A stretch of 44,113 nucleotides of DNA. Source: a virus. How positions within the stretch are numbered: position 1 is the stretch's first letter; every line of letters starts with the position of its first letter. The stretch lies in the IMG/VR virus record IMGVR_UViG_3300043775_003604, positions 1-44,113 of that record. One strand, 5' to 3'. Position numbers and translations under genes: made by a program. This document shows, in pieces, positions 2 through 42,064 of the stretch. The notes beneath the pieces are model-generated. The model searched no databases. It was not told the DNA's origin and was given only the letters and a program-made list of their open reading frames with translations.

Positions 2-355
2 ACTAGTGGTACCTCAGGAATAAACGGGACTTCAGGAACTAGCGGTATCAATGGAACATCGGGTACGAGTGGTATTAACGGAACTAGCGGTACTTCAGGA
101 ATAAACGGGACTTCTGGAACTAGTGGAATTAACGGTACTTCAGGTACTAGTGGAACATCAGGTAGAAATGGTACTAGCGGTACTTCAGGTATAAATGGTA
201 CTTCAGGTACGAGTGGAATAAATGGAACTAGTGGTACTTCAGGAACTAGCGGAAGTAGTGGTACCAGCGGTACTTCAGGAACTAGTGGTAGAAATGGTAC
301 TTCAGGAACTAGCGGAAGTAGTGGAACATCAGGAACTAGCGGAAGTAGTGGGTTA
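2..355 (+). repeat. Tandem repeat DNA encoding GTSG units
   Basis: Near-identical 9 to 18 base units built from ggtacttcagga, actagcgg and ataaacgg recur in frame. Unit order varies (GTSG, GING, GRNG, GSSG). Synonymous codons differ between copies, so the repeat is maintained at protein level, but the DNA is similar enough for slippage or recombination in multiples of 3. The array continues upstream of the window. Confidence 0.85.
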
Positions 356-1777
356 GGTACTATATTAAATAACGTTAATAACTACGTATTAACTGCAACG
401 GGAACATCAGGGGTTATTAATGGTGAATCTAATTTTACTTTTGATGGTGATACTGCACTAATAACAAATACAAATGCAACTGGAGACGAAACAGGATTAC
501 AAATTACTGTATCAAGTAATTCTAATTTTACAAAAATAGGTACTAAAAACATAATTAACACAACAGGGTCAACGATATATGGTACTTTTAATCAGATAAA
601 TGCAAGTGCGTCAAACACGACATATGGTTTTTATTCAGAATTTAAAGGTAGTACCGGTGATCAGATTGGGTTTTATAGTATATTAAATACTGCACTACCT
701 TCGGATAACAAATACGGGTTATACACTAACATTTCATCAAATGCTGGTGCTAGTTATGGGACATACACAACAATTGCAGGATCTGCATCGACAAATTACG
801 GTCACTTTACATATTTGAATGCAAGTGCATCCACAAATAATGATAATATTGGGTATTATGTAGAATCGGGACCAAACTCAAAAGTAGGTTCGGCAACAGA
901 CAGCCACTACGGGTTTGTTGCGAATATGTCTGGATCTACTACCGGTAGTAACTATGGAGGTACGTTTATTACTACGTCATCCGGAACAACCAATAACTAC
1001 GGAATTGCTATACAATCTCAAGGGGCTGCATCTAATAACTATAGCATCTACACTATTAATGGTACTGCTTTGTTTAATTTCCTTGCTGATCCTAATTCCG
1101 ATTTCCAAGTTAAATCGGATACTCAGGCGAATATGCTTTTTGTTGATTCTTCAGCAAATTCGGTGGGTATTGCTCAAGGAACACCAACGGCAAATTTACA
1201 CATTGGTGCAGGAAGTACTACACAACCACCATTAAAATTAACATCAGGGTCACTTACTACAACACCAGAAACAGGAGCTATTGAATACCTCAATGATATT
1301 TTATATTTTTCCAACACTGAAGGTAGACACCAAATATGGGGCGGAGATTTAAATAGACAAACCGATGATCCTACATTTGTTAGTAATACTACATATCAAA
1401 ATTTAGGTAATATGACAGTAAGTTTTAGTGCTGGTAGTCTTTATGAGATAGAAATATATGGTAGATTAACTGCCGGTGCAGGTGGCGCTAAACTAAGAAT
1501 AGTTAATTCAGGGGGTACTTATACTAGAATTGATTTGAACACTCAATATACAGTAAATGGGGCCGCATCTTCAGTAGTATTAACTACAGGTGGAGGTACT
1601 TTTGCGGCCAATGAATTTGCATCTAATACTACCGGTGTTGCAATATATCAAATAAAAGGGATTTTAGAAGTTGCGACAGATGCGACGATATGGGTTCAAG
1701 GAGCGGCAAACAGTGTAAATGCTGCGACCACACAATTTTGGAGAAATAGTTTTATAAAAATCACAAATTTAAGTTAA
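2..1777 (+). CDS. Tail-fibre-like protein, 5'-truncated, with GTSG repeats
   Basis: The reading frame is open from base 2, so the N-terminus lies outside the window; the first in-frame ATG at 815 is internal. The first ~118 visible residues are almost pure collagen-like Gly-X-Ser/Thr repeats (GTSGTSGING, GTSGRNG, GSSGTSG). From about 560 to 1065 there follows a series of short repeats centred on YG-aromatic motifs (YGFYS, IGFYS, YGLYT, YGTYT, YGHFT, IGYYV, YGFVA), about 14-19 residues apart, which suggests a beta-helix or beta-prism shaft. The last ~140 residues look like a globular beta-rich tip, with no peptidase S74 chaperone signature that I can see. The architecture of repeat shaft plus tip fits a receptor-binding fibre. 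The downstream glycosyltransferase with a TibC-like domain suggests that the Thr/Ser-rich shaft may be glycosylated; that is inference. Confidence 0.75.
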   Translation, partial: TSGTSGINGTSGTSGINGTSGTSGINGTSGTSGINGTSGTSGINGTSGTSGTSGRNGTSGTSGINGTSGTSGINGTSGTSGTSGSSGTSGTSGTSGRNGTSGTSGSSGTSGTSGSSGLGTILNNVNNYVLTATGTSGVINGESNFTFDGDTALITNTNATGDETGLQITVSSNSNFTKIGTKNIINTTGSTIYGTFNQINASASNTTYGFYSEFKGSTGDQIGFYSILNTALPSDNKYGLYTNISSNAGASYGTYTTIAGSASTNYGHFTYLNASASTNNDNIGYYVESGPNSKVGSATDSHYGFVANMSGSTTGSNYGGTFITTSSGTTNNYGIAIQSQGAASNNYSIYTINGTALFNFLADPNSDFQVKSDTQANMLFVDSSANSVGIAQGTPTANLHIGAGSTTQPPLKLTSGSLTTTPETGAIEYLNDILYFSNTEGRHQIWGGDLNRQTDDPTFVSNTTYQNLGNMTVSFSAGSLYEIEIYGRLTAGAGGAKLRIVNSGGTYTRIDLNTQYTVNGAASSVVLTTGGGTFAANEFASNTTGVAIYQIKGILEVATDATIWVQGAANSVNAATTQFWRNSFIKITNLS

Positions 1778-1782
1778 TAATT

Positions 1783-2043
1783 ATGGCAAAAGAAATACAA
1801 CTAAACGGAACACAAAATGTAACTGTTGTTACAAGAGAAGAAGTAATTATTGAGACAAATAGGCTTAATATCATATCAATAACTGATGACGGTAAAAAAG
1901 TTTACTGTAAAGTGTCATTTTTTCACACGTCAGGTTTAAAAAGAGATTTAATATTGTGGGAAGGACAAGAATATCTAAACATTGGTAATTGGACAGATCT
2001 TGATGTTGAAAATAGAGTAAAAGAACTTTTAAACGTAACTTAA
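1783..2043 (+). CDS. Small hypothetical protein after the tail fibre
   Basis: 86 residues, starting 5 bases after the fibre stop codon (taataattATG), so it is very likely co-transcribed and co-translated with it. The composition is that of a soluble beta-rich protein, with no signal peptide, membrane segment or motif that I recognise. Its position suggests a small virion protein or a fibre assembly/attachment factor, as small genes after phage fibres often are; this is inferred from context only. It is followed by a T-rich stretch at 2045-2060 with no hairpin. Confidence 0.6.
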   Translation: MAKEIQLNGTQNVTVVTREEVIIETNRLNIISITDDGKKVYCKVSFFHTSGLKRDLILWEGQEYLNIGNWTDLDVENRVKELLNVT

Positions 2044-2082
2044 TTATTTTTTTTTTTATTTAGTTTATTATATTTTTTCTAT

Positions 2083-5000
2083 ATGGAAAAATATGAAAAA
2101 TCTTATGTTTTTTATGCTACAGAATCTTATTTTGATATTGCAAAAAAATCAATTGAGTCGGTAAGAAATTATTCCGATTTACCAATTTATCTTTATTTAT
2201 TAAATTCAGATTTAAAATTAGATCTTGAAAATGTTTTCACAATCAGATGGAATTGTGATATAACAATTGATGATAATATGTATGAAGTTTTTGAAAATAA
2301 AAACTTTTACATAAATAGAAGAAATAAAAACATGTACAATCTTCTAATTCAAAGACCTTCAATTGTTAAACACTGTCTTGAATATTACTCAAATACTGTT
2401 TGTTATATTGATTGTGACTCAATTGCGACTCCTTATGTTGATAAAATATTTGATTTTTTTGATCCATCCTCCACATACCCCTATTTTACGCAAGGTGTTT
2501 ACGAATATTTAAATTTTTATGAAAGAGGTGGATTACCAATTGATGAAGAATCAACAAATACTGTGGAATATAATTTATGTCAGTTGTTAAATACAGATCA
2601 AAAAAATAGAAACACATATAGACAAACAGGATATTTTGTTTCAAATAAAAATTGCATTTCATTTTTAAATGAATGGATAGAAACCTGCAATCACCCAAAG
2701 ATTTTAGAAAACCCTGAGTATTATGCGCCCTTTCACGAAGAAACAGTTATGAATGTTTTACTTTGGAAAAATAACTTTCAAAAAGGTCTTCCTTACATTT
2801 ATGTTAATGGATCAATAGAAAGAGTTGATGAAATATATAATAAAATAAAATTTAATGGAGAAGATAATCTCGTATCAGATCTATATAAAATTCCTAAAAC
2901 AAAAGAAACCCTTTTATTTTTTCATGGAGAAAAAAGAATTAACGTTATGGAACAAATGATAAAAAGTATTGAAAAAAATTATAAAACAAAAATCTTGTTT
3001 TTAGCCCCTCACCTATCCACAGGAGGTATGCCATCATTTTTACTTAAAAGAATTGAAGAACTTTTAAAATTTGAAAAGGATATTGAAATATTTGTTTGTG
3101 AGTATTCTTTTTATGGTGATGCGTATGTGGTACAAAGAAATAAAATAATAGATCTAATTGGAAAAGATCACTTTTTTGAACTTGGATCAAATAAAGATAA
3201 TTTATTAAATATTATAAAAGAAAATAATATTGATATTTTACACATTGACGAAAATGTAGAAATGTTAAATGAACCAATGTCTGAGTTAACATTAAGACAA
3301 CTATATTCTGATGATAGGTCTTGGAGAATAATTGAAACTTGTCATAATACTTGGTTTGATGCAAATAATAATAAAAGGTATAATCCTGATGGTTATATAT
3401 TTTGTACTCCTTGGCATAAAGAAAATACCTACTCAACATTATCTTCACCAAACACAACAATAGAGTTTCCAATAGAAAATAAAGTCCCTACAACTGATCA
3501 AAAAGAAGAAACAAAAAAATTATTAGGATTTGATCTTGATAAAATCAATGTAGTAAATGTTGGGTTATGGACAAGAGGAAAAAATCAAGGTGAGATGGTT
3601 GAAGTTGCAAAACTTTTAGAAAAAACAAACCCTGAAATTATATTTCATTTTATTGGAAACCAAGCAGTTAATTTTCAAGATTATTGGGAACCGATAATGT
3701 CTGACATCCCATCAAATGTTAGAATATGGGGAGAAAGAAATGATGTTGAATTATTTTTGACGGCAGCAGATCTTATGATGTTTAATTCAACATTGGAGTG
3801 TAATCCCCTGGTTGTAAAAGAATCAATTTCACACGGACTCAAAATTATTGCAAGACCATTGGATCAATATATGGGAATTTATGATGATTATATTTTTCCA
3901 ATTAAAAATAATAATGTAAATGATATTAAAGACATACTTTTAGAAGTTATAAATTCTGATAACAAATATGGTCATGTTTATTACTACGAAGACCAATTTT
4001 CAAAAAAACATATGGAATTTTATAAAAAGGTTTTATTGGATAAACCTATGAATCAAATAAAAAAACAAAATAATATTCAAATAATACATCATTTTGTTGA
4101 AAATCCTTTTATTGAAATTAGAGGAGAAAGTAATTCAAATTATATAATTAAAGTATATGATGAAACGGATCTTTGTATTTATCAAAACACAATTAAGTCA
4201 AACCATTGGGTTAAATTACATAGACAATATTACACAAAATGGAGAACTGAAATATATGAAGATGGTAATTTAATTTATAATGAAACATTAAACTTAAAAG
4301 ATAAAAGAGTTTATATTTCTTTTGAAAGTAGATCGTTAGGTGATACCTTATCTTGGATGCCATATGTTGAAGAGTTTAGAAAAACTCACGAATGTAAAGT
4401 TATCCTTTCAACGTTTTTAAATGATTTATTATCTGATGAATACCCTGAAATTGAATTTGTAAAACCGACAACAGTTATAAATAATTTATACGCTCTTTAT
4501 AGAATAGGATGGTTTTACACACCAGAAGGAAAAGTTGATACTAGTAGACATCCGTATGATCCAAAATCACAACCCCTTCAAAAAACTGCGTCTGATATAT
4601 TAGGATTAGAATTTAAAGAAATAAAACCAAAGTTAAAATATCCAAATCTTACAAAAAAGAAAAAGGTGGGTATTGGGATTCACGGAACCACACAATCAAA
4701 GTATTGGAATAACCCTGATGGTTGGCAAGAAGTTGTTAATTATTTAACTTGGGAAGGTTATGAAGTTGTAATATATTCAAAAGAAGAAAATGGGTATATG
4801 GGAAATCATCATCCATATGGTGCAACAAAATTTAAAGAAGGTTCATTAAAAAATCTTATTTATGATATGGCAACTTGTGAATTTTTCATTGGTATTGGAT
4901 CAGGACTTTCTTGGCTTGCTTGGTCTATTGATTTACCTGTTGTTTTAATTTCAGGGTTTAGTCATAAATGGACTGAAACACAAACAAATACTTATCGTGT

Positions 5001-5187
5001 TATAAATGAAAATGTTTGCCACGGATGTTTTAATATGTGTCGATTGGATGCGGGTGATTGGAATTGGTGTCCGATGTTAAAAGACACTAACAGGATGTTT
5101 GAATGTACAAAATCAATAACATCCGATATGGTGATAAAACAGATAAAAAAAATAAAGGAGAATAGTTTAGAACTATCCTCCTTTTAA
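2083..5187 (+). CDS. Three-domain glycosyltransferase (GT-A + GT4-like + TibC/Aah-like heptosyltransferase)
   Basis: 1034 residues in three blocks. Residues ~1-290 look like a GT-A nucleotide-sugar transferase, with a DxD motif in YIDCDS (D110, D112). Residues ~300-650 look like a GT-B, GT4-family domain (FLAPHLSTGGMPSFLLKR at its start, later NVGLWTRGKNQGEM, and the ECNPLVVKES acidic motif). Residues ~690-1034 resemble the bacterial autotransporter heptosyltransferase family (Aah/TibC; GT9-like fold): FIGIGSGLSWLAWS, PVVLISGFSHKWTE, and a Cys cluster CHGCFNMC...WNWCP...FEC that matches the iron-finger region of TibC. TibC-type enzymes O-glycosylate Ser on repetitive beta-helical autotransporters. 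The gene lies 40 bases after the fibre operon on the same strand, so the fibre is the obvious candidate acceptor. The donor sugar cannot be read from sequence. Fusion of three transferases in one chain suggests stepwise synthesis of a short glycan. Confidence 0.85.
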   Translation: MEKYEKSYVFYATESYFDIAKKSIESVRNYSDLPIYLYLLNSDLKLDLENVFTIRWNCDITIDDNMYEVFENKNFYINRRNKNMYNLLIQRPSIVKHCLEYYSNTVCYIDCDSIATPYVDKIFDFFDPSSTYPYFTQGVYEYLNFYERGGLPIDEESTNTVEYNLCQLLNTDQKNRNTYRQTGYFVSNKNCISFLNEWIETCNHPKILENPEYYAPFHEETVMNVLLWKNNFQKGLPYIYVNGSIERVDEIYNKIKFNGEDNLVSDLYKIPKTKETLLFFHGEKRINVMEQMIKSIEKNYKTKILFLAPHLSTGGMPSFLLKRIEELLKFEKDIEIFVCEYSFYGDAYVVQRNKIIDLIGKDHFFELGSNKDNLLNIIKENNIDILHIDENVEMLNEPMSELTLRQLYSDDRSWRIIETCHNTWFDANNNKRYNPDGYIFCTPWHKENTYSTLSSPNTTIEFPIENKVPTTDQKEETKKLLGFDLDKINVVNVGLWTRGKNQGEMVEVAKLLEKTNPEIIFHFIGNQAVNFQDYWEPIMSDIPSNVRIWGERNDVELFLTAADLMMFNSTLECNPLVVKESISHGLKIIARPLDQYMGIYDDYIFPIKNNNVNDIKDILLEVINSDNKYGHVYYYEDQFSKKHMEFYKKVLLDKPMNQIKKQNNIQIIHHFVENPFIEIRGESNSNYIIKVYDETDLCIYQNTIKSNHWVKLHRQYYTKWRTEIYEDGNLIYNETLNLKDKRVYISFESRSLGDTLSWMPYVEEFRKTHECKVILSTFLNDLLSDEYPEIEFVKPTTVINNLYALYRIGWFYTPEGKVDTSRHPYDPKSQPLQKTASDILGLEFKEIKPKLKYPNLTKKKKVGIGIHGTTQSKYWNNPDGWQEVVNYLTWEGYEVVIYSKEENGYMGNHHPYGATKFKEGSLKNLIYDMATCEFFIGIGSGLSWLAWSIDLPVVLISGFSHKWTETQTNTYRVINENVCHGCFNMCRLDAGDWNWCPMLKDTNRMFECTKSITSDMVIKQIKKIKENSLELSSF

Positions 5188-5317
5188 TTGGTGGAGAAGC
5201 GGGGCTCCGACTCCCCGGTCCAGCTCGTTTTGTCTAACAGACACCTACACGCTTAGGTTGGTATTTTCTAATACCCCAAAATAGATAGTTTTTTCAAATC
5301 CGAACTAACAAACAGAT

Positions 5318-5349
5318 ATAGTCAAATAACCCCCTGACTATTAGGGGTT
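5318..5349 (-). other. tmRNA pseudoknot
   Basis: On the minus strand AACCCC (5349-5344) pairs with GGGGTT (5333-5328), and ATAGTCA in its loop (5341-5335) pairs with TGACTAT (5324-5318). The two interleaved perfect stems form an H-type pseudoknot, as expected downstream of the tag in tmRNA. Confidence 0.85.
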
Positions 5350-5436
5350 TGTTTCTTTTCGGGTAGAAACCACACCTTTGTAGGGACTTCTGTTGCTAGG
5401 TTATATGTCCACCGACCCCCCGTTTCCGTACTTATC

Positions 5437-5502
5437 TTAAGCTACAGTAACTTCTTGAGTTGAGATTAGTCCCAAAGTCTCAAGGTTGTTTAGCACATTG
5501 CC
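5437..5502 (-). other. tmRNA tag reading frame (unusually long)
   Basis: Reading from the probable resume codon GGC (5502-5500), preceded by ACAATT as in Bacteroidota tmRNAs, gives a 21-residue tag that begins GNVLNNLE and ends STQEVTVA before TAA. Typical Bacteroidota tags are about 9-10 residues and end in ALAA. The resume codon is inferred by analogy. The frame is open from well upstream, so the start could differ, but the GTAGCTTAA end is characteristic. A stem CTTGAG/CTCAAG lies inside the tag region. Confidence 0.65.
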
Positions 5503-5663
5503 AATTGTTTTGTGAATCAGTTTTTAACGAGATTAATTCAGTCCCGACGTGCTTCTATTATTCAACCAACGCCTGTCAAATCCAATACTTCCCCATATAT
5601 CTTAAATGACACTTATCAAAGAACTCTTTTGTAAAGATAATACATTTATTTTAAATAACAAAT

Positions 5664-5671
5664 ATATTTAT
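5664..5671 (+). promoter_or_regulatory. ATATTTAT late-promoter-like motif
   Basis: Lies 6 bases before ATG 5678. Together with the loss of any good context at the earlier ATG 5606, it supports the start at 5678. Confidence 0.5.
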
Positions 5672-5677
5672 ATAAAT

Positions 5678-6832
5678 ATGATAAGAAAAAAATTTATATT
5701 TGAAAATGAAGAAAAAGTGGAAGAAAAAAACGACTTTCAAAAAATTCTTGATTTGAATAAAAAAAGAGTTCATCCCTATGAGGTTGAATTTGTTGATTCA
5801 AAAGGAAACGATTATTCAAAATTTATTGAAATAACCCAAAGCGGTATTTTATTTACTTTTGATGGGTTAAAAGATTATTTGGGATTCTTTTTTCCTAATA
5901 CATACGGTGAGGAGAACTCCGATGGTGAATATGAAGCGGGATATTATGAATCAATGTATAATAACAATTGGGACTATTATAGTGATTTTTCAGATAGAAA
6001 CTATGATGACTGGTCTGAAGGTTATATCACCGAATCTTTAATACAAAACCATTTAATGTTGGTTAAAGAACTTGCAAAATTAATTTCTCCCACAACATTT
6101 AGTTTAATAAAAAAAAATGATAAAACAGGTAAGTACGATTTAAAATCAGGTGAGGATGTAATAAAAGTAACCGCATTTTTAGAAACTCTTCAATTATCTG
6201 ATCGTTTGACAGAGATATATACAGAGGCTCAAGTTGAAGCAGTAACAGACGCAGTGAAAGATGGAATTAGTGATACATACTGCGATTGTTTAAAAGAATT
6301 TGGTATTGAAAGATATTCAACAAAATATTGCTTTTGGAAATATGAACTTGATTGGGGATCAGCAATTTTACTTTTTGCAAGATTTGGAACCGAGAATGAT
6401 AAACTTTTAGATTTATTATTTTATGCCATTGAAAAAAGTCCAAATATAAGACATCTTCCTGAATATTATGAACTACAATATAATTTTTGGGATAACGAAA
6501 AATTTGACTCTATTTGGGTTAGTAAAGTTGAAAAATTATTAGAGGATAAACTTGAAGAAATTTTATATGATGATGATTTAAAAAATGATCATTATGAGGT
6601 ATTAAGTAAAGTGTCGGAACTAGGAGGTATTGGAAGATGGTTATATACTAAAGATAAAAAATACCAAATACAAATAATGTATGTTGATGACTCAAATAAA
6701 ATAAGTTATAGAATTAGAAAAACAGGAGGTTATCAGTTTAATAGTGGAAAAACAGACATAGATACGTTAGTTAATATGTTTTATAATCATTTTCTATTTG
6801 ATCCTTTAAGTGAAGGATTACATATTAAGTAA
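5678..6832 (+). CDS. Hypothetical acidic phage protein
   Basis: 384 residues from ATG 5678. An earlier in-frame ATG at 5606 would add 24 residues that overlap the sequence in front of the tmRNA, and the ATATTTAT motif sits directly ahead of 5678, so I chose the later start. The protein is rich in Asp, Glu, Tyr and Trp (for example a stretch with NNWDYYSDFSDRNYDDW), predicted soluble, with no signal peptide or membrane span and no family I recognise. It is transcribed towards the peptidase gene and the two stop ends overlap by 15 bases. It sits between the tmRNA and the peptidase/ClpC genes, so a role in the same cassette is possible but not shown by the sequence. Confidence 0.7.
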   Translation: MIRKKFIFENEEKVEEKNDFQKILDLNKKRVHPYEVEFVDSKGNDYSKFIEITQSGILFTFDGLKDYLGFFFPNTYGEENSDGEYEAGYYESMYNNNWDYYSDFSDRNYDDWSEGYITESLIQNHLMLVKELAKLISPTTFSLIKKNDKTGKYDLKSGEDVIKVTAFLETLQLSDRLTEIYTEAQVEAVTDAVKDGISDTYCDCLKEFGIERYSTKYCFWKYELDWGSAILLFARFGTENDKLLDLLFYAIEKSPNIRHLPEYYELQYNFWDNEKFDSIWVSKVEKLLEDKLEEILYDDDLKNDHYEVLSKVSELGGIGRWLYTKDKKYQIQIMYVDDSNKISYRIRKTGGYQFNSGKTDIDTLVNMFYNHFLFDPLSEGLHIK

Positions 6833-7858
6833 TCTATTTTTAATTATTTCATATAGATCTGGTAAATCTTCATCAGAAACAAAAAACGGTACCCCATCAA
6901 TAGCATCAACCAAATATAAACCATCCTCATCTTCAACAACATCCATAGTTTGAAGTTGATATGTTTCTTCTTCATACTCATCATCTTGAAACTGCAAAAG
7001 TGAATTCATTACGGTTTGAGAATTATAAACAAGAGGTTTATATTCATATTTATATTTTTTAAGTCCCAAAGTTTCAACCATATTTTTTCCAATATTAATT
7101 GCATCTTCAACATCTTTAATTGAAATAAATTCTTGAGATGAGTGCATGTTATAGTACCCACAAGACATATTAATACAACATACGTCCGATTTCTTTTTTA
7201 ATTGAGAAATATCAGTATATGGGTGTGATTGGATAAGTACTTCCCCACCAAAACCGTTCTCAATAAGAGGTAATGTTTTTTGAAAAAACTCACTTTCTCT
7301 TTCAAAAAGTTGAACTCCCGAGCAAATTTCGGTAATTAAATGATTTCCTGGCGCATCATACTGAGTAATATAAGCAACATCTTTCAAAAACGATACGTCA
7401 CAATTGCTAGATCCGTGACAACCAGTTTCTTCAGAAACAAAAAGACCTATTTTTACTTTATCTAAACTTTTTAAAAGTTCAAGGCAAATAAAAATACCAC
7501 ATTTGTCATCACCACCAATTCCAGTTGGATTTCCATCTTCGGTGTATGCCTTTAAACACAAAACCTCTTGATCATCAAATTTTTTCCCAAAAGTATGTGG
7601 TCTAGAAAGATTTTCTTCTTTTACAATAATTTTATCTACTTTTTGGTGAACGGTGTCAGTATGTGCAATAAACATTGGGTAGAACTCTCCTTCGGAAAGT
7701 TCACCCTTTGTTGCATATATATTCATCATTTTGTCCCTGTAATAAGAAACACCTGGTATTCCATCAAGTTCATTACAAACAAATTCTACCATATCTTCTT
7801 CTTGATATGTTTTTGAAGAAACTGATAGTAGATCCTTGAACTTTTCTAAATTTGTCAT
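6818..7858 (-). CDS. M20-type zinc aminopeptidase (peptidase T-like)
   Basis: 346 residues from the ATG at 7858 (MTNLEKFKDLLSVSS); a longer start at 7897 adds 13 residues of poor quality. The co-catalytic metallopeptidase pattern is visible: AHTDTVH (H66, D68), GIGGDDKCG (D117/D118 bridging metal), VSEETGCHGS (general base E143 and E144), YDAPGN (D167) and a late NMHSSQEF for the last His. Family M20 enzymes of this type (PepT, aminotripeptidase) remove N-terminal residues from short peptides in the cytoplasm. The gene lies 56 bases downstream of the clpC-like gene on the same strand, so both are probably one transcript; the peptidase could finish what a Clp protease begins. A TATATTTG box upstream (around 7877-7884) fits the Bacteroidota -7 consensus. 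Confidence 0.85.
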   Translation of the reverse strand: MTNLEKFKDLLSVSSKTYQEEDMVEFVCNELDGIPGVSYYRDKMMNIYATKGELSEGEFYPMFIAHTDTVHQKVDKIIVKEENLSRPHTFGKKFDDQEVLCLKAYTEDGNPTGIGGDDKCGIFICLELLKSLDKVKIGLFVSEETGCHGSSNCDVSFLKDVAYITQYDAPGNHLITEICSGVQLFERESEFFQKTLPLIENGFGGEVLIQSHPYTDISQLKKKSDVCCINMSCGYYNMHSSQEFISIKDVEDAINIGKNMVETLGLKKYKYEYKPLVYNSQTVMNSLLQFQDDEYEEETYQLQTMDVVEDEDGLYLVDAIDGVPFFVSDEDLPDLYEIIKNRLLNM

Positions 7859-7913
7859 AATATTTGTTTTAAACAAATATAAGAATTTTTTCAACAATTA
7901 CAAAAAAATAATA

Positions 7914-9953
7914 CTATTTTGTTTTTCTTTTTGTTGGTTTTTTAACCTTAACTTCTGTTTTATTATCTTTTTCGTTAAACGATAAAATGAACTTTGATCC
8001 TTTTTCTGGATTATCGGTTAGAATTTTTTCGGTAATGGCATCATCAATCCATTTTTGAACTGTCCTTTTCAGAATTCTTGCCCCAAATCTTTCATCAGTA
8101 CCTACTTTAGTCAAATGTGCCTTTAAATCATCATTAATTACCGACTCATACCCAATCTCTTTAAGTTTTTTATGGAATTTTGCAAGTTCTAAATCAACAA
8201 TTTGCAGTAAATCATTTTCATTTAGATCTTTGAAGTAAATAATCTCATCAAAACGATTTATAAATTCAGGAACGAATTTTTTGAATAATTCTTTTTCTAA
8301 AAGTGATTTAATATCATCGTTTTTTGATTCTACTTTTGTCTGAGTTGAAAACCCTACTCCACTTCCAAATTGTTGTACTACTCTTGTACCGACATTTGAT
8401 GTCATAAGGATTATCGTGTTTTTAAAATTGATTTTTCTTCCGTGTCCGTCAGTTAAAAATCCTTCATCTAACATTTGTAAAAATACGTTAAAAATTTCAG
8501 GATGTGCTTTTTCTATCTCGTCTAATAAAATAACGCAGTATGGTTTGTTTTTAACTTTATTTAAAAACGGAGATCCATCTTCATAACCAACATATCCTGG
8601 TGATGTACCTGTAAGTTTTGAAGATGCGATTTTATCTGAAAATTCACTCATATCTAATCTGATAAGTGCGTCTTCGCTGTTGAACATATATTTTGCAAGT
8701 TGTTTTGCAAGCTCTGTTTTACCAACACCTGAATTTCCGATTAGTAATCCACTAAATATTGGTTTTTTAGGATCATTAAGTCCCACTTTATTTCTTTGTA
8801 TTGCTCTTGAAATTTTGGAAACTGCATCATCTTGTCCTATTACATTTTTTGTAAGATTTTCTTTTAACTCTTTTAATTGCTCTGTCTCATCAATTGAAAA
8901 TTTACTAATTGGAATTTTAGTCATAAGTGAAACGACATCATAAATAATATCTTCAGTTATTTCTTTTTTATTTTCTGATTGCTCCTTTTCAAATTTAGCC
9001 TTTTCTGTTTGCAAACTTTCAATAATACGTCTTTCTTTATCTCTAAGACTGGCAGCCTCCTCATATCTTTGACTTTGTATTACTTTAATTTTGTCTTCTT
9101 TGATCTTTTGAGCCTCCCTTTTTAGAATTTCAATTTCCTCTGGAAGCTTAACCTCTACTTGTGCTCTTGCTCCCACCTCATCAATAATATCAAATGCTTT
9201 ATCAGGGAATTCACGATCAGTAATAAAACGATCAGCGAGTTCAACACACAATTTTAAAATTTCGTCTGTGTAGATAACTTTATGATGTTTTTCATATCTG
9301 AATTTAGATTGTCTTAAAATTTGAAAAGTCTCTTCTTTTGTTGCAGAATCAACTACTATCTTTTGGAACCTTCTCTCAAGGGCGCCATCCTTTTCAATAT
9401 TTTTTCTATATTCCTCAAGTGTGGTTGCCCCAATACATTGAAGTTCCCCTCTTGAAAGTGCCGGCTTGAAGATGTTTGATGCGTCCATAGTACCGGATGA
9501 GTTTCCTGCTCCGATTATTGTGTGAATCTCATCAATAAAAACAATGATATCTGGATTATTATAAAGTTCTTCTAAGATTACTTTTAATCTTTCTTCAAAC
9601 TGTCCTCTGTACTTTGTTCCTGCAACAACAGATGTCATATCTAATGATACTATTCTTTTGTTTGAAAGGTTTTGTGGGCAATCCCCCTCAAAAATCTTTC
9701 TTGCTAACCCCTCAACAATCGCAGTTTTACCACATCCAGGTTCTCCGATTACTATTGGATTATTCTTTTTTCTTCTTGATAGAATTTGTGCAATTCTATT
9801 TATTTCATCGTCCCTACCAATAACTGGATCCAATTTACCCTCCTCTGCTAATTTTATTAGATCTCTTGAAAAATTATCAAGTACGGGTGTTTTTGTTGGG
9901 TTATCCGATTTGTTACTTTTTGGTTTTTCGTTACCGTCTGCAGATTCTATCAT
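7914..9953 (-). CDS. clpC: ClpC-like AAA+ unfoldase lacking the N-terminal domain
   Basis: 679 residues with two AAA+ modules. D1 has Walker A GEPGCGKT (70-77) and Walker B FIDE (D141, E142). The middle domain contains a UVR-type helix (QRYEEAASLRDKE, ~295-307) typical of ClpC. D2 has Walker A GNSGVGKT (406-413) and Walker B LLDEIEKAHPE. The ClpP-docking tripeptide is present as VGF at 533-535, so the protein should be able to feed a ClpP barrel, presumably the host's. Cellular ClpC has about 150 further N-terminal residues forming the adaptor/substrate-binding N-domain; here a 20-residue polar leader is followed at once by TPVLDNFSRDLIKLAEEGKLDPVIGR. Substrate choice must therefore work differently. 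Divergent to it is a double-UVR protein (10152-10505), and downstream is a peptidase. Confidence 0.93.
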   Translation of the reverse strand: MIESADGNEKPKSNKSDNPTKTPVLDNFSRDLIKLAEEGKLDPVIGRDDEINRIAQILSRRKKNNPIVIGEPGCGKTAIVEGLARKIFEGDCPQNLSNKRIVSLDMTSVVAGTKYRGQFEERLKVILEELYNNPDIIVFIDEIHTIIGAGNSSGTMDASNIFKPALSRGELQCIGATTLEEYRKNIEKDGALERRFQKIVVDSATKEETFQILRQSKFRYEKHHKVIYTDEILKLCVELADRFITDREFPDKAFDIIDEVGARAQVEVKLPEEIEILKREAQKIKEDKIKVIQSQRYEEAASLRDKERRIIESLQTEKAKFEKEQSENKKEITEDIIYDVVSLMTKIPISKFSIDETEQLKELKENLTKNVIGQDDAVSKISRAIQRNKVGLNDPKKPIFSGLLIGNSGVGKTELAKQLAKYMFNSEDALIRLDMSEFSDKIASSKLTGTSPGYVGYEDGSPFLNKVKNKPYCVILLDEIEKAHPEIFNVFLQMLDEGFLTDGHGRKINFKNTIILMTSNVGTRVVQQFGSGVGFSTQTKVESKNDDIKSLLEKELFKKFVPEFINRFDEIIYFKDLNENDLLQIVDLELAKFHKKLKEIGYESVINDDLKAHLTKVGTDERFGARILKRTVQKWIDDAITEKILTDNPEKGSKFILSFNEKDNKTEVKVKKPTKRKTK

Positions 9954-25163: not shown

Positions 25164-27959
25164 ATGAAAAATTTACTATTATTATTTTTGACTTTTTTAT
25201 TTAGTCTATTTTCTTACGGACAAACAACAGCGTTCAGTGAAACATTTGAAGGTACAACTCAACAGTTAATTTTAGTTAATGGATCCCAAACCAACAAATG
25301 GTACCACGGAACTACAACTAGTGGTTATTGTGCTGGTGTAAAGGGTCTTAACATAAGTAATAATGGAACCACTTATGCCTACACTATAACATCAACATCT
25401 AGAGTACACGCTTATTTTGATGTAGCTATTCCAGCAGGTGCAACCAGTATAACTCTAAACTATACATGTAAAGTAAATGGGGAAGCAAATTATGACGATA
25501 TCCGAGTATGGTCCTGTCCTAATACATTTACCCCAACAGCGGGAACTGCAATCACAACATCAAATGGTACTTTAGTTACAACAAGACAAGGTATATCAAG
25601 TTGTACTGCCCAAACACATACTCTAACAGGAATTGCAGGAACAACACGAAGAATAGTATTCCAATGGAGAAATGATAATGGTGGAGGATCAGGATCAGCG
25701 TCTATTGATAACATAACATTTACATATGTTCCTGTATCAACAGTACCAACTTGTGCTAGTCTTTCTTCACCATCCAATGGTGCCACCAACCGTCCTCTAA
25801 ACCAAACCATATCTTGGGCATCAACAGCGGGAGCTACAGGTTACGATGTTTATTTTGGAACTGCATCAAACCCACCATTAGTATCCTCAAATCAAGCAGG
25901 AACTACTTACAATCCAGGTACGTTGAATGCTAACACTACTTATTATCATAAAATTGTTCCACGAAATTCTGTTGGACCGGCAACTGGGTGTAATACTTGG
26001 TCTTTTACAACATTAAATCCACCATCAAACGATAATTGTTCAGGGGCAACTAGTTTACCTTGTGGTACTTCTAGTTTAGCAGGAACAACAGTAAATGCCG
26101 TTTCTGAGACAGCACCTAATTCATCTACAACGGGTACAATGGGTGTATGGTATACATTTGTTGGGGATGGTCAATCAACAACAATAACTGTAGTACAAAG
26201 TTTAGACACTCGTTTATTAGTATTAACAAGTGGTACTGGATCTTGTGGTGGGACATATACCACAGTCGCTAATGTTGATAATATAACAAGTACAAATGAA
26301 ACAACAACATTTACAGCAATTAATGGAACTGCGTATTTTATTTATATCGGTCATTGGAATTCTACCACCACAACAGGTACTTTCACTATAAGTAGAACTT
26401 GTGTAACACCCCCAACAAACAATAACTGCTCAAGTGCTCCATCATTAACAGTAAACTCAGGAACTTCATGTACATCACCAACTAATGGGACAACTGTTGG
26501 AGCAACCCAATCCTCAACATCTTGTGCCGGAACAGCGGATGATGATGTTTGGTATTCTTTTGTTGCTACCCAAACTAGCCAAACCATAACTGTAACACCA
26601 GGAACAATGTCAGACGCTGTTTTTCAAGTTTATAGTGGAACTTGTAGTGGATTAACATCTTTAGCTTGTATTGATAATACATTGGGGTCCTCATCAGAAA
26701 CAACCACAGTCACTAGTCTAACAATAGGATCAACGTACTATGTTAGGGTTCATAGTTATGGTAATGGTACAGGACAAGGAACATTCTCAATTTGTGCGAC
26801 TTCACCTTGTTCAACACCTACAACATCAGGTACTTTAGAGGCAAACAAAACATCAACAACTGTAAATGATGCGGTTACATTTACAACTACAGGGAATGGT
26901 GGTACTACAACAAAATTTGAATGGTCATTTGATAACTTTTCAACAGTTGCAGGATCAGTAAACAACCCAGCAAACCCATACACTCTTATATTAAACATAC
27001 AGCAACCAACTATGTGGTTTAGAACCACTTCAGTTAGTGGTGCTTGCCCAGCTGGAGTTACCTCACCAGTATCAGTTACTTTACAATCTGCTCCACCATA
27101 CGTTTATGGAACAGACGATGGTGATTATATTTCAAATGTTACTTTAAACACAATAAATAACAACTCAACATATGATCCACCACTAGGGGATTCATATCAA
27201 GACTTTACCTCCATTTCAACAACATTGGTTAGAGGAGCAAATTATACAATATTTGTTTCTAGTCCTGTAACATTCTTAGGGTCTGCATCCGGTTATGCTG
27301 CTTGGATAGATTTTGATAATGATGGTATATTTGAGGTGTCAGAAAATATAATGCAAAAATCTCCATCAACAACTCAATCACAATCATTTACGGTACCTTC
27401 AGATGCAGCAACAGGACTTGTTAAAATGCGTGTATTGTCAAGATGGAATGGTACCCCAACAACAGATGCGTATAATTCAGCAGGGTACAATTATGGTGAA
27501 GTGGAGGAATACAGAGTGTCTATTGAAAGTGCACTACCAATTGAATTATCATCATTTAATGGTTTTAACAAAGGTAAAAATAATCACATATTTTGGGTAA
27601 CCTCATCAGAACAAAACACAAGTCATTTTAACTTACAAAAAAGTAGAGATGGTGAAAATTGGGAAACTGTAGTCACACTAAATGCTGCGGGTAATTCAAA
27701 CACACAAATTGACTATGATGTTGTTGATTATAAAGTAGATCCAATTATTAATTACTATAGATTACAACAATACGATAACGATGGGGTTTATGAAACTTTT
27801 GGTCCAATATCAATCAATAATACGGATTTGGGTAATCAAAAAACAATCGTTAAATATATTAACTTAAACGGACAAGAAATAGATCCTAACAGACTTGGTT
27901 TAATGGATGTTTACATTGAGGTCTACGACGACGGAACTATGAGAAAAGTGATTAAATGA
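25164..27959 (+). CDS. Secreted multidomain surface protein with GEVED and T9SS-like C-terminal regions
   Basis: 931 residues. The N-terminus is a Sec signal peptide (MKNLLLLFLTFLFSLFSYGQ). A jelly-roll-like domain follows (~25-190), then a fibronectin III-like domain (~195-285, PSNGATNRPLNQTISW). Two related beta-sandwich repeats come next (~287-415 and ~417-545, both opening with NNxCS and closing with GTFTISxTC or GTFSICAT), then an Ig-like part, a GEVED-type domain (~645-790: YAAWIDFDNDGIF and YGEVEEYRVSIE) and a C-terminal ~140 residues beginning LPIELSSFNGF and ending YIEVYDDGTMRKVIK, which resembles type IX secretion sorting domains of Bacteroidota. This is the architecture of a host cell-surface adhesin, placed just after the phage capsid gene. 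It overlaps the next gene by 4 bases. Confidence 0.85.
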   Translation: MKNLLLLFLTFLFSLFSYGQTTAFSETFEGTTQQLILVNGSQTNKWYHGTTTSGYCAGVKGLNISNNGTTYAYTITSTSRVHAYFDVAIPAGATSITLNYTCKVNGEANYDDIRVWSCPNTFTPTAGTAITTSNGTLVTTRQGISSCTAQTHTLTGIAGTTRRIVFQWRNDNGGGSGSASIDNITFTYVPVSTVPTCASLSSPSNGATNRPLNQTISWASTAGATGYDVYFGTASNPPLVSSNQAGTTYNPGTLNANTTYYHKIVPRNSVGPATGCNTWSFTTLNPPSNDNCSGATSLPCGTSSLAGTTVNAVSETAPNSSTTGTMGVWYTFVGDGQSTTITVVQSLDTRLLVLTSGTGSCGGTYTTVANVDNITSTNETTTFTAINGTAYFIYIGHWNSTTTTGTFTISRTCVTPPTNNNCSSAPSLTVNSGTSCTSPTNGTTVGATQSSTSCAGTADDDVWYSFVATQTSQTITVTPGTMSDAVFQVYSGTCSGLTSLACIDNTLGSSSETTTVTSLTIGSTYYVRVHSYGNGTGQGTFSICATSPCSTPTTSGTLEANKTSTTVNDAVTFTTTGNGGTTTKFEWSFDNFSTVAGSVNNPANPYTLILNIQQPTMWFRTTSVSGACPAGVTSPVSVTLQSAPPYVYGTDDGDYISNVTLNTINNNSTYDPPLGDSYQDFTSISTTLVRGANYTIFVSSPVTFLGSASGYAAWIDFDNDGIFEVSENIMQKSPSTTQSQSFTVPSDAATGLVKMRVLSRWNGTPTTDAYNSAGYNYGEVEEYRVSIESALPIELSSFNGFNKGKNNHIFWVTSSEQNTSHFNLQKSRDGENWETVVTLNAAGNSNTQIDYDVVDYKVDPIINYYRLQQYDNDGVYETFGPISINNTDLGNQKTIVKYINLNGQEIDPNRLGLMDVYIEVYDDGTMRKVIK

Positions 27960-36526: not shown

Positions 36527-37273
36527 TTATTGGCTATGTATCTTTTTCAAGGTAGAAAGATAAAGTTGTTTGTATTTTTTTAAACAAACTCTTATTTCTT
36601 TTGTATTTAAATTGGTCATTTCTCTTAAAGAAAGTAAGACAATATTTTTATTGAACTTGTTGTTATTGTTCCCAATAAAAATATTGCCATAGTCATCAAA
36701 CAAATCAATTAATGCGTAACCTAACTTTAATTCATTTTCAGATAAATTTTCTTTAGTGATGTAAACATTAAGATCAGATAAAAATATATCAATTATTTTG
36801 TCCGCTTCTATTTTTTCAAACTCTAAATAATAAACCATATCAGGTCTATTCTCTAAAGTTGTTGAAATGTCCTCATAGGAAATTTTTCTATTCATATCTT
36901 TTTGGTCTTTTTGGATTTGACCCATAAGATAATTTTTACAAATAGTCCCAAAATAGGAATATGCTTTTTTGTTTTTTGCCGGTTTAAACTTATCAACTTT
37001 AGTTATTAAAAAAGAATGAGTATCCTGATGAATTTCTTCATAGTTCATATCTTTTCTATAAAGTTTATATCTCCTTATGATTGACTCAATCATTTTATCA
37101 AGGGGATCCTTTAAAAACGTGTTATAGATTTCCTCTTTTTCTTCTTTGCAGTCAGACAATATGTATTGTTTGACTGCATCTTCTTCACGAACATCAAAAT
37201 AATTTTTACTTGATTTCTTCGTCTTATTCTTAACTATCTCTTGATTTTGATCATAATTTTCGGATAAAAACAT
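36527..37273 (-). CDS. 55: Late-transcription sigma factor (T4 gp55-like)
   Basis: 248 residues. The central part (YEEIHQDTHSFLITKVDKFK, then AYSYFGTICKNYLMGQIQKD and QKDMNRKISY, ~80-140) follows sigma region 2 as in gp55, including the YF-T-I-C and K-rich helix. There is no typical sigma region 4; the C-terminal ~100 residues are helical. gp55 proteins direct host RNA polymerase to late promoters with a simple -10 box. The ATATTTAT motif seen before many genes here is the natural candidate target. The start is overlapped by the stop of the glycosyltransferase before it (TAATG). Confidence 0.85.
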   Translation of the reverse strand: MFLSENYDQNQEIVKNKTKKSSKNYFDVREEDAVKQYILSDCKEEKEEIYNTFLKDPLDKMIESIIRRYKLYRKDMNYEEIHQDTHSFLITKVDKFKPAKNKKAYSYFGTICKNYLMGQIQKDQKDMNRKISYEDISTTLENRPDMVYYLEFEKIEADKIIDIFLSDLNVYITKENLSENELKLGYALIDLFDDYGNIFIGNNNNKFNKNIVLLSLREMTNLNTKEIRVCLKKYKQLYLSTLKKIHSQ

Positions 37274-38085
37274 TAAACATTTTGTGGTTCATATTTTATA
37301 TTTCTATCATTAGTGAAGAAATGTTCTTTTTTCGCGGAATCCAACCAAAATTTAACCTCATCGTCTGTGATCTTACTTTCCCCAAACTTGTAGTTCCAAA
37401 AAATTGACCCTTCTCTCATATTCGTATGTTTGTATCCAATACGAGGTACTGACATAATTTTTACAGAATTATATGTTAATCTTAAAAGTAATTCATAAAC
37501 AAATGTTAATTTAAATGATGGTTTAAATCCTCCATTATTGATTAAAGTGTCTCTTTTAACAACCATTCCACTTGTTTGGAAGTTTTGATAAGTTAATAAA
37601 ACGTCATTTGTTAAATAACCCATTTCTGTCGTCAAACTAACTGCGAACGTCGCCTCATTTGTAAACCCAGCAAATGCCCCCTTTTCATCTGTGTCAACCA
37701 CCAAAGGTAAAAAACAATCAACATCGGTATATGATTCAGAATAACGTTTTGCGTTTTTAAACCAAATGGATGAATACTCGTCATCAAATTCTAAAATAGA
37801 TACCCACGTAGATGTTGCTTTTTCAACTCCTAAATTTACTTGAGATGAAAAATCTGTAGTTCCTTCATTTAAAACTAAAACGGTGTTAATTCCTTTAAAA
37901 TCGTACCCATTAAGGTAGTTCACTAAACCTTCTTCTTTAGAATGTACCACAATAAGTTCTTTTATATCAACGGATTGATTTTTAATAGATTCCACCGCTC
38001 TATTAAAAAGGTCACTAAAATCTTTATATTTAGCCGACTCGATTGGTAATACTACCGATACATCAAATAATACTTTTTCTTCCAT
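37273..38085 (-). CDS. GT2-family glycosyltransferase
   Basis: 270 residues with the GT-A fold of family 2: VSVVLPIES at the N-terminus, NLGVEKATSTWVSILEFDDEY with the acidic metal-binding motif (around residue 97-101), and FQTSGMVVKRDTLINNGGF with the typical GGF acceptor loop. The enzyme is cytoplasmic, without a membrane segment. It is coupled by overlap to the late sigma gene and lies 6 bases from the next glycosyltransferase. The donor is unknown. Confidence 0.8.
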   Translation of the reverse strand: MEEKVLFDVSVVLPIESAKYKDFSDLFNRAVESIKNQSVDIKELIVVHSKEEGLVNYLNGYDFKGINTVLVLNEGTTDFSSQVNLGVEKATSTWVSILEFDDEYSSIWFKNAKRYSESYTDVDCFLPLVVDTDEKGAFAGFTNEATFAVSLTTEMGYLTNDVLLTYQNFQTSGMVVKRDTLINNGGFKPSFKLTFVYELLLRLTYNSVKIMSVPRIGYKHTNMREGSIFWNYKFGESKITDDEVKFWLDSAKKEHFFTNDRNIKYEPQNV

Positions 38086-38091
38086 AATAAA

Positions 38092-39156
38092 TTAATTTTC
38101 TTCTGTAATTTTTAGTTTTTCAATTTGGTCACTGAAAGATGTTTTTCTACCATCAAAGTATTCACCAAATAATTTTAAAATTGTTCCATTAAATTCTTCT
38201 TCATTTTGATATGTTTTTGAGGTTTCCGACATATTAACATATAAATTTTCAGAAATATTATCTTCCAACCAATTTTGTAGGTAGTTTGAAAGAATATCAA
38301 CGATTTCGTTTGTGTTGTGTGTCCAAATACCATTCATTTCGGTCATCCAGTCAGGTTTTAAATTTGGTACTTTTCCAATTACTGGTGTACCCGATGCCAT
38401 TGACTCTAAAGGAAATGTACCGAACCCTGATTCAACATCAACCCAAACAGAAACAAACGATTCTTTAAGGAATTTTGCAAAATCATTTTGGTTTATTCCT
38501 CTAAGATCTCTAAATGTTACCCATCTAAACTGAGGATATTTTAAATAAAACGTTTTAATTATTTTTGAAGTGTCTCTTGGATCTCTAGTGTGAATTGAGA
38601 TAATAGGTTTTGACGGTTTGTCTTTTTTAGAGAATTCATTAGGAATCAATGGTTGTATAACGTCAATACTCACTCCTCTCATTACTTCTGTAATGTAATT
38701 TTTTTGAAATTCAGAAGTGGTAATACATTTATAAAAACCATAAGTAGTCCAATCTGTTCCTGGCGCCATTGTTTCTAACATATGATCATATGCTTGACAC
38801 AAAACAATTTTACCACAAGGGAAGTTTTTTAACTGATCCATAACGTGACCATAAAGTTCAGGAATGACAATTAAATCTTCAGGTGAGATCTGTAAGTTTT
38901 CACCTTCAATTGTCTGATGAGGTAATTCCATATATTCATTACCTAACCATTCACCGACTCCTTTATAGTCCTTTGACTCGTGAATAATAATCGGATTAAA
39001 ACCGTTATTTTTTAATGTGAGGGCAATTTGATAAATGTGTCTAATACCTGCCTTTGGATTACCTTTTGTGTCTTGAACCAAAAAGTAAATCCTTGAGGTT
39101 CTCTCCTCCAAATTTTTGATGGACTGTTCCATCTTTTCTAGTCTTTCTAAATCCAT
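38092..39156 (-). CDS. GT4-like glycosyltransferase
   Basis: 354 residues. A short N-terminal coiled coil (MDLERLEKMEQSIKNLEE) precedes a GT-B enzyme: FLVQDTKGNPKAGIRHIYQI with the Gly-rich loop, and the donor-site region SVWVDVESGFGTFPLESMAS and TPVIGKVPNLK, corresponding to the E-x7-E motif of family 4. The C-terminal ~50 residues are helical. It sits in a row of closely spaced minus-strand genes. Confidence 0.75.
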   Translation of the reverse strand: MDLERLEKMEQSIKNLEERTSRIYFLVQDTKGNPKAGIRHIYQIALTLKNNGFNPIIIHESKDYKGVGEWLGNEYMELPHQTIEGENLQISPEDLIVIPELYGHVMDQLKNFPCGKIVLCQAYDHMLETMAPGTDWTTYGFYKCITTSEFQKNYITEVMRGVSIDVIQPLIPNEFSKKDKPSKPIISIHTRDPRDTSKIIKTFYLKYPQFRWVTFRDLRGINQNDFAKFLKESFVSVWVDVESGFGTFPLESMASGTPVIGKVPNLKPDWMTEMNGIWTHNTNEIVDILSNYLQNWLEDNISENLYVNMSETSKTYQNEEEFNGTILKLFGEYFDGRKTSFSDQIEKLKITEEN

Positions 39157-40798: not shown

Positions 40799-41629
40799 CT
40801 AAAATTGTTTGTAAAGGTTTTTTGAAAAATTATTTAATTCTATTAGTTGTTCTTCTAGTGTCGGGATTTCAAAATCCTCTATATTTTTGTATATTGTACA
40901 CATACTACGATCACACTTTTTATCGGTTTCTTTTTCAATTACGGTGACATTTAAATTAAATGTTTTACTAATTATCTCAACTAACTCCTTTTTATTTAAT
41001 GTGTTTGAGTGAAGATGTTTAGTACCAACCCAAAAAAGATTACCATCTATCATTTTTTTACAAATTTTCGCAAATTCTAAACAAGTTACACCATTCCAAA
41101 AATGATTAGTAAATCCAAAAACTGTTTTATTTTTTTCTGACTTAACCCATTCAATAAGTGATCTACCTTGATTTACTTCTTCCCCTATAATTGATGTTCT
41201 AATAACCGTACAATTTTTTGGTTCGCCAAGTGCTTTACTCATACCATAAACATCAAAAACATCGTAGTTGTCATTTTCTGTATAATTTCCTTTATTTCCG
41301 GTATAAACACAATCAGTTGTTGGGTGTATCATTTTAACTTTATAATATTCACAAACATTAGCTAAAATTCTTGGAAATACTGAATTAACTAAAATCGCAT
41401 TTAAATCCCCCAATTCGTCAACTCTTGGTTTTATTGTACCGGCACAGTTAATTACTACATCACCTTCTTTAATATTTAAATGAACAAATTTGGATCTTAA
41501 TTCTGATTCTTTTATATCGGACACATCGATATCTTTCCTACTTATTTCGACTAAATCATAATATTCTTTTAAATATGTTGATACATATTTTCCTAACATC
41601 CCAGTACTACCTATAACAAATACTTTCAT
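40799..41629 (-). CDS. RmlD-like NAD(P)-dependent sugar reductase
   Basis: 276 residues. N-terminal Rossmann motif GSTGMLGKY, HPTTDCVYTG and the catalytic YGMSK motif, as in dTDP-4-dehydrorhamnose reductases and related SDR enzymes; the CDRSMCT segment near the end fits the family's DRS motif. It would reduce a 4-keto sugar nucleotide. It is next to the cupin epimerase-like gene, which supports a deoxysugar pathway. No RmlA or RmlB is seen in the window. Confidence 0.8.
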   Translation of the reverse strand: MKVFVIGSTGMLGKYVSTYLKEYYDLVEISRKDIDVSDIKESELRSKFVHLNIKEGDVVINCAGTIKPRVDELGDLNAILVNSVFPRILANVCEYYKVKMIHPTTDCVYTGNKGNYTENDNYDVFDVYGMSKALGEPKNCTVIRTSIIGEEVNQGRSLIEWVKSEKNKTVFGFTNHFWNGVTCLEFAKICKKMIDGNLFWVGTKHLHSNTLNKKELVEIISKTFNLNVTVIEKETDKKCDRSMCTIYKNIEDFEIPTLEEQLIELNNFSKNLYKQF

Positions 41630-41647
41630 TTTTTTTATTTTTATAAT

Positions 41648-42064
41648 TTATCTATAATCGTCGGACCATATATCCCATTTATCGTGCTGCTGTCTTATAT
41701 CGTCACCCAAACTTTCTTCAAGTGTTGATGTTGAAAAAAACAAAATTTTAGTATTTTCTTCTAAGGATTTAAATCCGTTATAATGACCTGGTGGGATCCA
41801 TAATATTTTTGGCGATTTATCGCTAAGAACAAACTTTTGTACATCTTCAGTTTCCATATTTACAACACCAATTAACGCCGACCCACTTGTTAGATATACA
41901 TATTTACCTTCTTTTTTATGACCATGCCACGCCCTTATAAATCCCCTTTTGTGGTTTTCAACCTGATAAAACCTTTTAACCCCATCAAAATTAAAATCAT
42001 TTACAAATCTAACAGAACCTCTATCGTCTACAGATATACCTCCATTAATAATTTTTGTTTCCAT
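41648..42064 (-). CDS. Cupin-type sugar nucleotide epimerase/isomerase (RmlC/FdtA-like)
   Basis: 138 residues with a single beta-barrel cupin: DDRGSVRFVN, RGFIRAWHGHKKEGKYVYLT with the His residues of the active site, and LWIPPGHYNGFKSLEE. It is similar to dTDP-4-dehydrorhamnose 3,5-epimerases and FdtA/WxcM-type isomerases. The exact reaction is not decided by sequence. Its start overlaps the stop of the epimerase gene by 1 base (TAATG). Confidence 0.75.
   Translation of the reverse strand: METKIINGGISVDDRGSVRFVNDFNFDGVKRFYQVENHKRGFIRAWHGHKKEGKYVYLTSGSALIGVVNMETEDVQKFVLSDKSPKILWIPPGHYNGFKSLEENTKILFFSTSTLEESLGDDIRQQHDKWDIWSDDYR

Follow-up and report, generated by a model that had tools for sequence, protein, structure and literature searches.

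Mycobacteriophages have their own virion proteins glycosylated by phage-encoded glycosyltransferases (GTs), a concept of self-glycosylated virions in which, to our knowledge, neither a TibC-type enzyme nor a collagen stem takes part. In glycosylated collagen-like proteins, such as BclA of the Bacillus exosporium or Thr-glycosylated collagen, a Thr-rich Gly-X-Y stem is the O-glycan carrier, and the GTs of the BclA-type proteins differ from the TibC type. Thr glycosylation has been named as one mechanism of collagen stabilisation (PMC3368898). The E. coli prophage fibre EPclA has a phage-encoded trimeric collagen stem that is proline-rich, and its recombinant form is not glycosylated (PMC3368898). 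The protein O-glycosyltransferases TibC and Aah (BAHT, TIGR04414; PDB 4RAP, 4RB4), a family characterised by heptose transfer from ADP-heptose and by a dodecameric assembly, are encoded beside long, repetitive, Ser/Thr-rich surface fibres. In TibC, Asp110 is the catalytic base, ADP-heptose is bound by Thr226, Lys230, Arg286 (to adenine N1) and Trp305, and an iron is held by Cys339, Cys342, Cys358 and Cys370 (PMC4358343). Residue 300, which bears on stereoselectivity, is Pro in TibC and Ser in Aah. A literature search with little coverage of subscription journals returned nothing on phage TibC-type enzymes and nothing on glycosylated collagens in phages.

The locus described here lies at one end of a 44-kb virus record (IMG/VR IMGVR_UViG_3300043775_003604, positions 1 to 44,113), the whole of which is called the window. 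A collagen-like tail fibre is encoded upstream of a large three-domain GT, and the features used below are as follows.

2-1777 (+): collagen-like tail fibre, C-terminal 591 aa of a gene cut by the left end of the window; probable acceptor (Pfam Collagen, PHROG tail-fibre families)
2-358 (+): proline-free Gly-(Thr/Ser)-Ser / Gly-Ile-Asn stem of 39 triplets; proposed O-glycosylation zone (pattern matches, direct reading)
540-1090 (+): YG repeats of the fibre, period about 15-20 aa (direct reading)
1783-2043 (+): 86-aa ORF without assigned function, between the fibre and enzyme ORFs
2083-5187 (+): three-domain GT of 1034 aa with an ATG start (profile and model evidence)
2083-2982 (+): domain A, aa 1-300; GT-A fold, LgtC/GT6-like, with a DxD motif (D110/D112) and HG-x-K near the domain C-terminus
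2983-4047 (+): domain B, aa 301-655; GT4, HepE/BshA-like GT-B
4072-5178 (+): domain C, aa 664-1032; TibC-type protein O-glycosyltransferase, its N-terminal beta-barrel included (TIGR04414, 4rb4)
4342-4344 (+): Asp754, aligned with the TibC catalytic base Asp110 (PMC4358343)
4855-4857 (+): Leu925, aligned with the adenine-contacting Arg286 of TibC and changed here
5017-5106 (+): iron-finger Cys979, Cys982, Cys996 and Cys1008, aligned with TibC Cys339, Cys342, Cys358 and Cys370
40799-43023 (-): sugar-nucleotide genes, a possible donor supply (family matches, the NCBIfam ones below cut-off)
40799-41629 (-): RmlD-like gene (family match)
41648-42064 (-): RmlC-like gene (family match)
42064-43023 (-): epimerase/dehydratase gene (family match)

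Domain C scored 287.3 bits against the NCBIfam model TIGR04414 (hepto_Aah_TibC; curated cut-off 200 bits), with residues 686-1024 covering positions 28-374 of the 374-position profile, and the enzyme matched TibC in the PDB (4rap) with an E value of 4e-62. A full-length model built from 27 relatives had a mean pLDDT of 84.7, and its residues 664-1032 superposed on TibC (4rb4, 21-394) with a Z score of 38.4 and an r.m.s.d. of 2.4 over 358 aligned residues, the N-terminal beta-barrel included, which is the match that an earlier note on this DNA had proposed as a check. The SGLSWLAW and ISGF motifs and the multi-Cys iron-finger pattern that the same note had read in the C-terminal third are all present, with four iron-finger Cys residues. 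Domain B matched Pfam Glycos_transf_1 (PF00534) at residues 474-631 (41.6 bits, cut-off 26.4; E 1.3e-10), and modelled residues 301-650 superposed on GT4 enzymes, with a Z score of 30.3 for HepE. No sequence family was matched by the N-terminal 300 residues; a profile search for GT8 and GT6 gave a weak PF01501 match (E 0.01) in one of 12 domain A members. Modelled alone (pLDDT 86), domain A adopts a GT-A fold with a Z score of 16.1 to LgtC (GT8) and BoGT6a, and its DxD residues D110 and D112 are invariant in the alignment of relatives. Because GT-A, GT4 and TibC folds were matched in turn, all three domains are, as modelled, glycosyltransferases, and the reading of this ORF as three fused GTs with a TibC/Aah-type domain at the end was borne out. 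PHROGs assigned no family to the enzyme. Comparison with the relative L002 gave dN/dS values of 0.08, 0.14 and 0.18 across the three domains, and each domain of the gene is thus under purifying selection.

Among the catalytic, donor-binding and iron-finger residues of TibC that were compared, the only change in the window enzyme is that of Arg286 to Leu925; Thr226, Lys230 and Trp305 correspond to T869, K873 and W944, and the position of residue 300 is occupied by Gly. Arg286 is retained in 28 of 31 cellular relatives, whereas in most phage relatives it is replaced by Val, Thr, Leu, Cys, Lys or others while the remaining active-site residues are fixed in nearly all. This pattern bears on whether domain C is a true O-heptosyltransferase that uses ADP-heptose as TibC and Aah do, with the Arg286 change being neutral, a possibility compatible with either acceptor discussed below. 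The TIGR04414 score well above cut-off, the retained Thr, Lys and Trp residues and the persistence of Arg286 in a handful of phage homologues, one of them in the megaphage record LR756501, favour that possibility. Against it, Arg286 binds adenine and the R286A substitution abolishes or largely diminishes TibC activity (PMC4358343), and no match to the heptose kinase family TIGR02198 rose above cut-off across 22 related phage records. We therefore consider a neutral change unlikely. A heptose pathway encoded by the phages themselves was rejected on the same TIGR02198 search. ADP-heptose is a doubtful donor for the window enzyme, and probably not the actual one, because the adenine-contacting Arg is lost; the donor would be different or relaxed relative to that of TibC. 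The description 'heptosyltransferase-like' in the earlier note thus holds for the fold and is doubtful for the donor, and 'O-heptosyltransferase', the name used by NCBIfam, may be a misnomer for the phage members.

The fibre ORF scored 59 bits against Pfam Collagen (PF01391, cut-off 27.2), the only Pfam family found in it, and its PHROG matches are to tail-fibre families. The Gly-X-Y stem, which gave 16 pattern matches where none was expected and is composed of GTS, GIN and GSS triplets, precedes the YG repeats, so that the Thr/Ser-repeat tail fibre with GTSG repeats and a YG series described in the earlier note is present as described. Across 6383 triplets of such Ser/Thr-type fibres, Thr accounts for 55% and Ser for 32% of X positions and Ser for 77% of Y positions, with proline at 0.2% of X and 0.6% of Y, in place of the proline-rich X and Y positions by which a proline-type collagen stabilises its triple helix. 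The longer Gly-Thr-Ser partners in relatives are collagen tail fibres, several of them with an S74 chaperone domain. YG repeats are rare among relatives and were rejected as a conserved partner of the enzyme; Gly-Thr-Ser collagens recur, in otherwise differing fibres. The implied tie to an autotransporter-like beta-helix or to the YG repeats accordingly gives way to a collagen-like Gly-(Thr/Ser)-Ser stem as the recurring partner.

Relatives of the enzyme are encoded at 47 viral loci. The constant part is the TibC-type domain, which is usually C-terminal; the GT-A and GT4 domains either share its chain, are encoded in separate neighbouring ORFs, or are replaced. Other TibC-type chains carry FkbM, TylF or CmcI-type methyltransferase domains, a PIG-L-type deacetylase or additional GTs, and the fused methyltransferases and deacetylase are typical glycan-tailoring enzymes. 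The extreme case is a single ORF of 2863 aa (L028, 258-8846) that joins GT4, an FkbM methyltransferase, DUF6625, a PIG-L deacetylase, a second methyltransferase and a TibC domain. A glycan assembly line would be expected to show such domain shuffling. One contig binned to a Candidatus Nitrosotalea MAG (L220) combines Ser/Thr collagens with a TibC-type fusion, arranged much as in the viral loci L035-L036, and is probably phage DNA mis-binned into an archaeal MAG.

The association between TibC-type genes and Ser/Thr collagens was examined in three ways. Among 33 T4-like contigs picked solely by portal or terminase similarity, a Ser/Thr collagen was present in all five contigs with TIGR04414 above cut-off and in 2 of the 28 others (Fisher P 9e-5); two more records with TIGR04414 matches below cut-off had no Ser/Thr collagen, and counting both as positive and merging a near-duplicate pair gave a P value of 0.006. 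Restricting this set to contigs of at least 60 kb gave 5/5 against 2/11. When contigs of at least 40 kb were picked solely by a (Gly-Thr-Ser)3 pattern or solely by a Gly-Pro-X pattern, TIGR04414 was found in 17 of 34 Ser/Thr-collagen contigs (16 above cut-off) compared with 1 of 23 proline-type contigs (Fisher P 3e-4), and in 16/21 compared with 1/14 at 60 kb or longer (P 8e-5). The two genes were also linked: a Ser/Thr-collagen gene lay within about 10 kb of the enzyme in 11 of these 17 positives, with a random expectation of 3.4 (P about 2e-5), as scored in the 11-20 kb fetched around the enzyme under a random-placement model that assumes one collagen gene per contig. These values are to be read with the contigs being fragmentary, so that linked genes are lost together and co-occurrence is inflated, phylogenetically non-independent and uncontrolled for host, and shared hosts may be a partial cause of the association. 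Half of the Ser/Thr-collagen contigs, some of them fragments, have no TIGR04414 gene, which indicates that the enzyme is not obligatory. No other GT was found beside the Ser/Thr collagens of TibC-negative contigs among ten neighbours tested. In sum, Ser/Thr collagens and TibC-type genes show recurrent association and gene linkage in many phages.

Among known phages, only four records encode a TibC-type domain. In the isolated Microcystis phage Mel-JY01 (PP395634.1; L530), the enzyme CDS (4750-8430) bears no annotation beyond 'methyltransferase FkbM', and an unannotated upstream ORF (2-3049, +, 1016 aa) is a Ser/Thr collagen. In the 735-kb uncultured phage LR756501 (LR756501.1; L531), a collagen ORF is immediately adjacent to large ORFs, the last of which is of the TibC type. 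The occurrence of the pair in these two records means that it spans unrelated phages and hosts. An annotated antisense CDS of Mel-JY01 (739-2298, -) overlies the collagen ORF and translates to repeats of the VPEVPSVPE type. In the LR756501.1 record the Ser/Thr collagen repeat pattern is matched 1659 times, which implies a very large number of these fibres or fibres of great length.

The window encodes a T4-like portal and terminase (Pfam). Its host is probably a member of the Bacteroidota, because a 931-aa protein (25164-27959, +) has GEVED and T9SS-associated galactose-binding-like domains (Pfam). A tmRNA is encoded directly 3' of the enzyme gene (5189-5594, -; RF00023, 81.5 bits, full length, CCA end), where it was missed by ARAGORN, and the relative L002 likewise has one (5052-5454, 81.9 bits). 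Additional GT2- and GT4-type genes (37273-39156 and 43072-43989, -) lie beside the RmlC-, RmlD- and epimerase-like genes, and a weak match to sigma-70 region 2 is found in the same neighbourhood (36527-37273).

Compared with TibC and Aah, the window enzyme shares the fold, the catalytic Asp, the Thr, Lys and Trp residues, the iron-finger Cys residues and a gene position beside a repetitive Ser/Thr-rich surface fibre. It differs in partner, donor-site residue and fusion: it is encoded by a phage and joined in one chain to GT-A and GT4 domains (to methyltransferases and a deacetylase in relatives), its neighbour is a collagen-like tail fibre and not an autotransporter passenger, and it has Leu for Arg286 and Gly for Pro300. 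The stem resembles BclA-type proteins in being a Thr-rich Gly-X-Y sequence; unlike those, it belongs to a virion fibre and is essentially proline-free. EPclA is likewise a phage collagen stem, but of the proline type, which rarely co-occurs with TIGR04414 in the contigs above.

The architecture and folds, the conserved active site, the purifying selection and the association are best explained by a single-chain assembly line with which the phage O-glycosylates Thr and Ser residues in the collagen-like fibre that it encodes, the fused GTs elongating the glycan, a reading to which we assign a probability of about two in three. In such a scheme, the TibC-type domain C would attach the first sugar to Thr/Ser hydroxyls of the Gly-Thr-Ser stem, with Asp754 acting as the base and the iron finger serving assembly, and the GT4 and GT-A domains would then extend that sugar. 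In a stem without proline, stabilisation of the triple helix may fall to the sugars, an effect reported for collagens glycosylated on Thr (Bann et al. 2000, cited in PMC3368898); the glycans would probably stiffen and shield the stem and may affect adsorption.

Glycosylation of the fibre itself is what we infer from these patterns, and two other targets have to be weighed. The enzyme could act on another part of the virion, such as the YG-repeat or C-terminal beta-rich region of the fibre or another structural protein, with the collagen stem being a mere neighbour. TibC and Aah modify autotransporter repeats (PMC4358343), of a strand-loop-strand kind according to the NCBIfam name, the YG repeats of the window have a comparable period, and in one exceptional contig (G111; L527, G111:C1:86100-106000) the TibC-type gene lies near a proline-type (GPQ) collagen with only 3% Ser/Thr at X and Y. 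This explanation appears quite improbable given how seldom relatives have YG repeats and how regularly Ser/Thr collagens recur in fibres that are otherwise different.

The target could instead be host surface glycans or host proteins, for receptor masking or superinfection exclusion. GT4 and GT8-like domains are common builders of surface polysaccharides, and the window holds the additional GT and sugar-nucleotide genes listed above. The constant C-terminal domain, though, comes from a protein O-glycosyltransferase family, fibre genes stay near while the fusion partners vary, and no membrane or lipid-carrier domain was among the Pfam domains found, and we regard a host target as very unlikely. 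Fibre glycosylation therefore remains our preferred reading, and the original observation proves real and broader than claimed, corrected in substrate (the collagen stem) and in donor (heptose being doubtful).

More tentatively, and with somewhat less than an even chance of being right in full, we propose a widespread and previously undescribed phage system in which proline-free (Gly-Thr-Ser)n stems co-evolve with one-polypeptide assembly lines, a TibC-type domain with a changed donor initiates, the structure of the glycan depends on the fused GTs, O-methyltransferases and deacetylases, and glycosylation takes over from proline the role of helix stabiliser. Mel-JY01, which is isolated and carries the same pair, could be used to test fibre glycosylation, and the enzyme together with a simple Gly-Thr-Ser acceptor would provide testable tools. 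If the proposal is true, a phage class with an altered donor site would be added to the protein O-glycosyltransferases, the stability of collagen-like fibres with almost no proline would be explained, and many tailed phages of Bacteroidota and Microcystis, as well as uncultured megaphages, would decorate their fibres with glycans by means of one-chain assembly lines.
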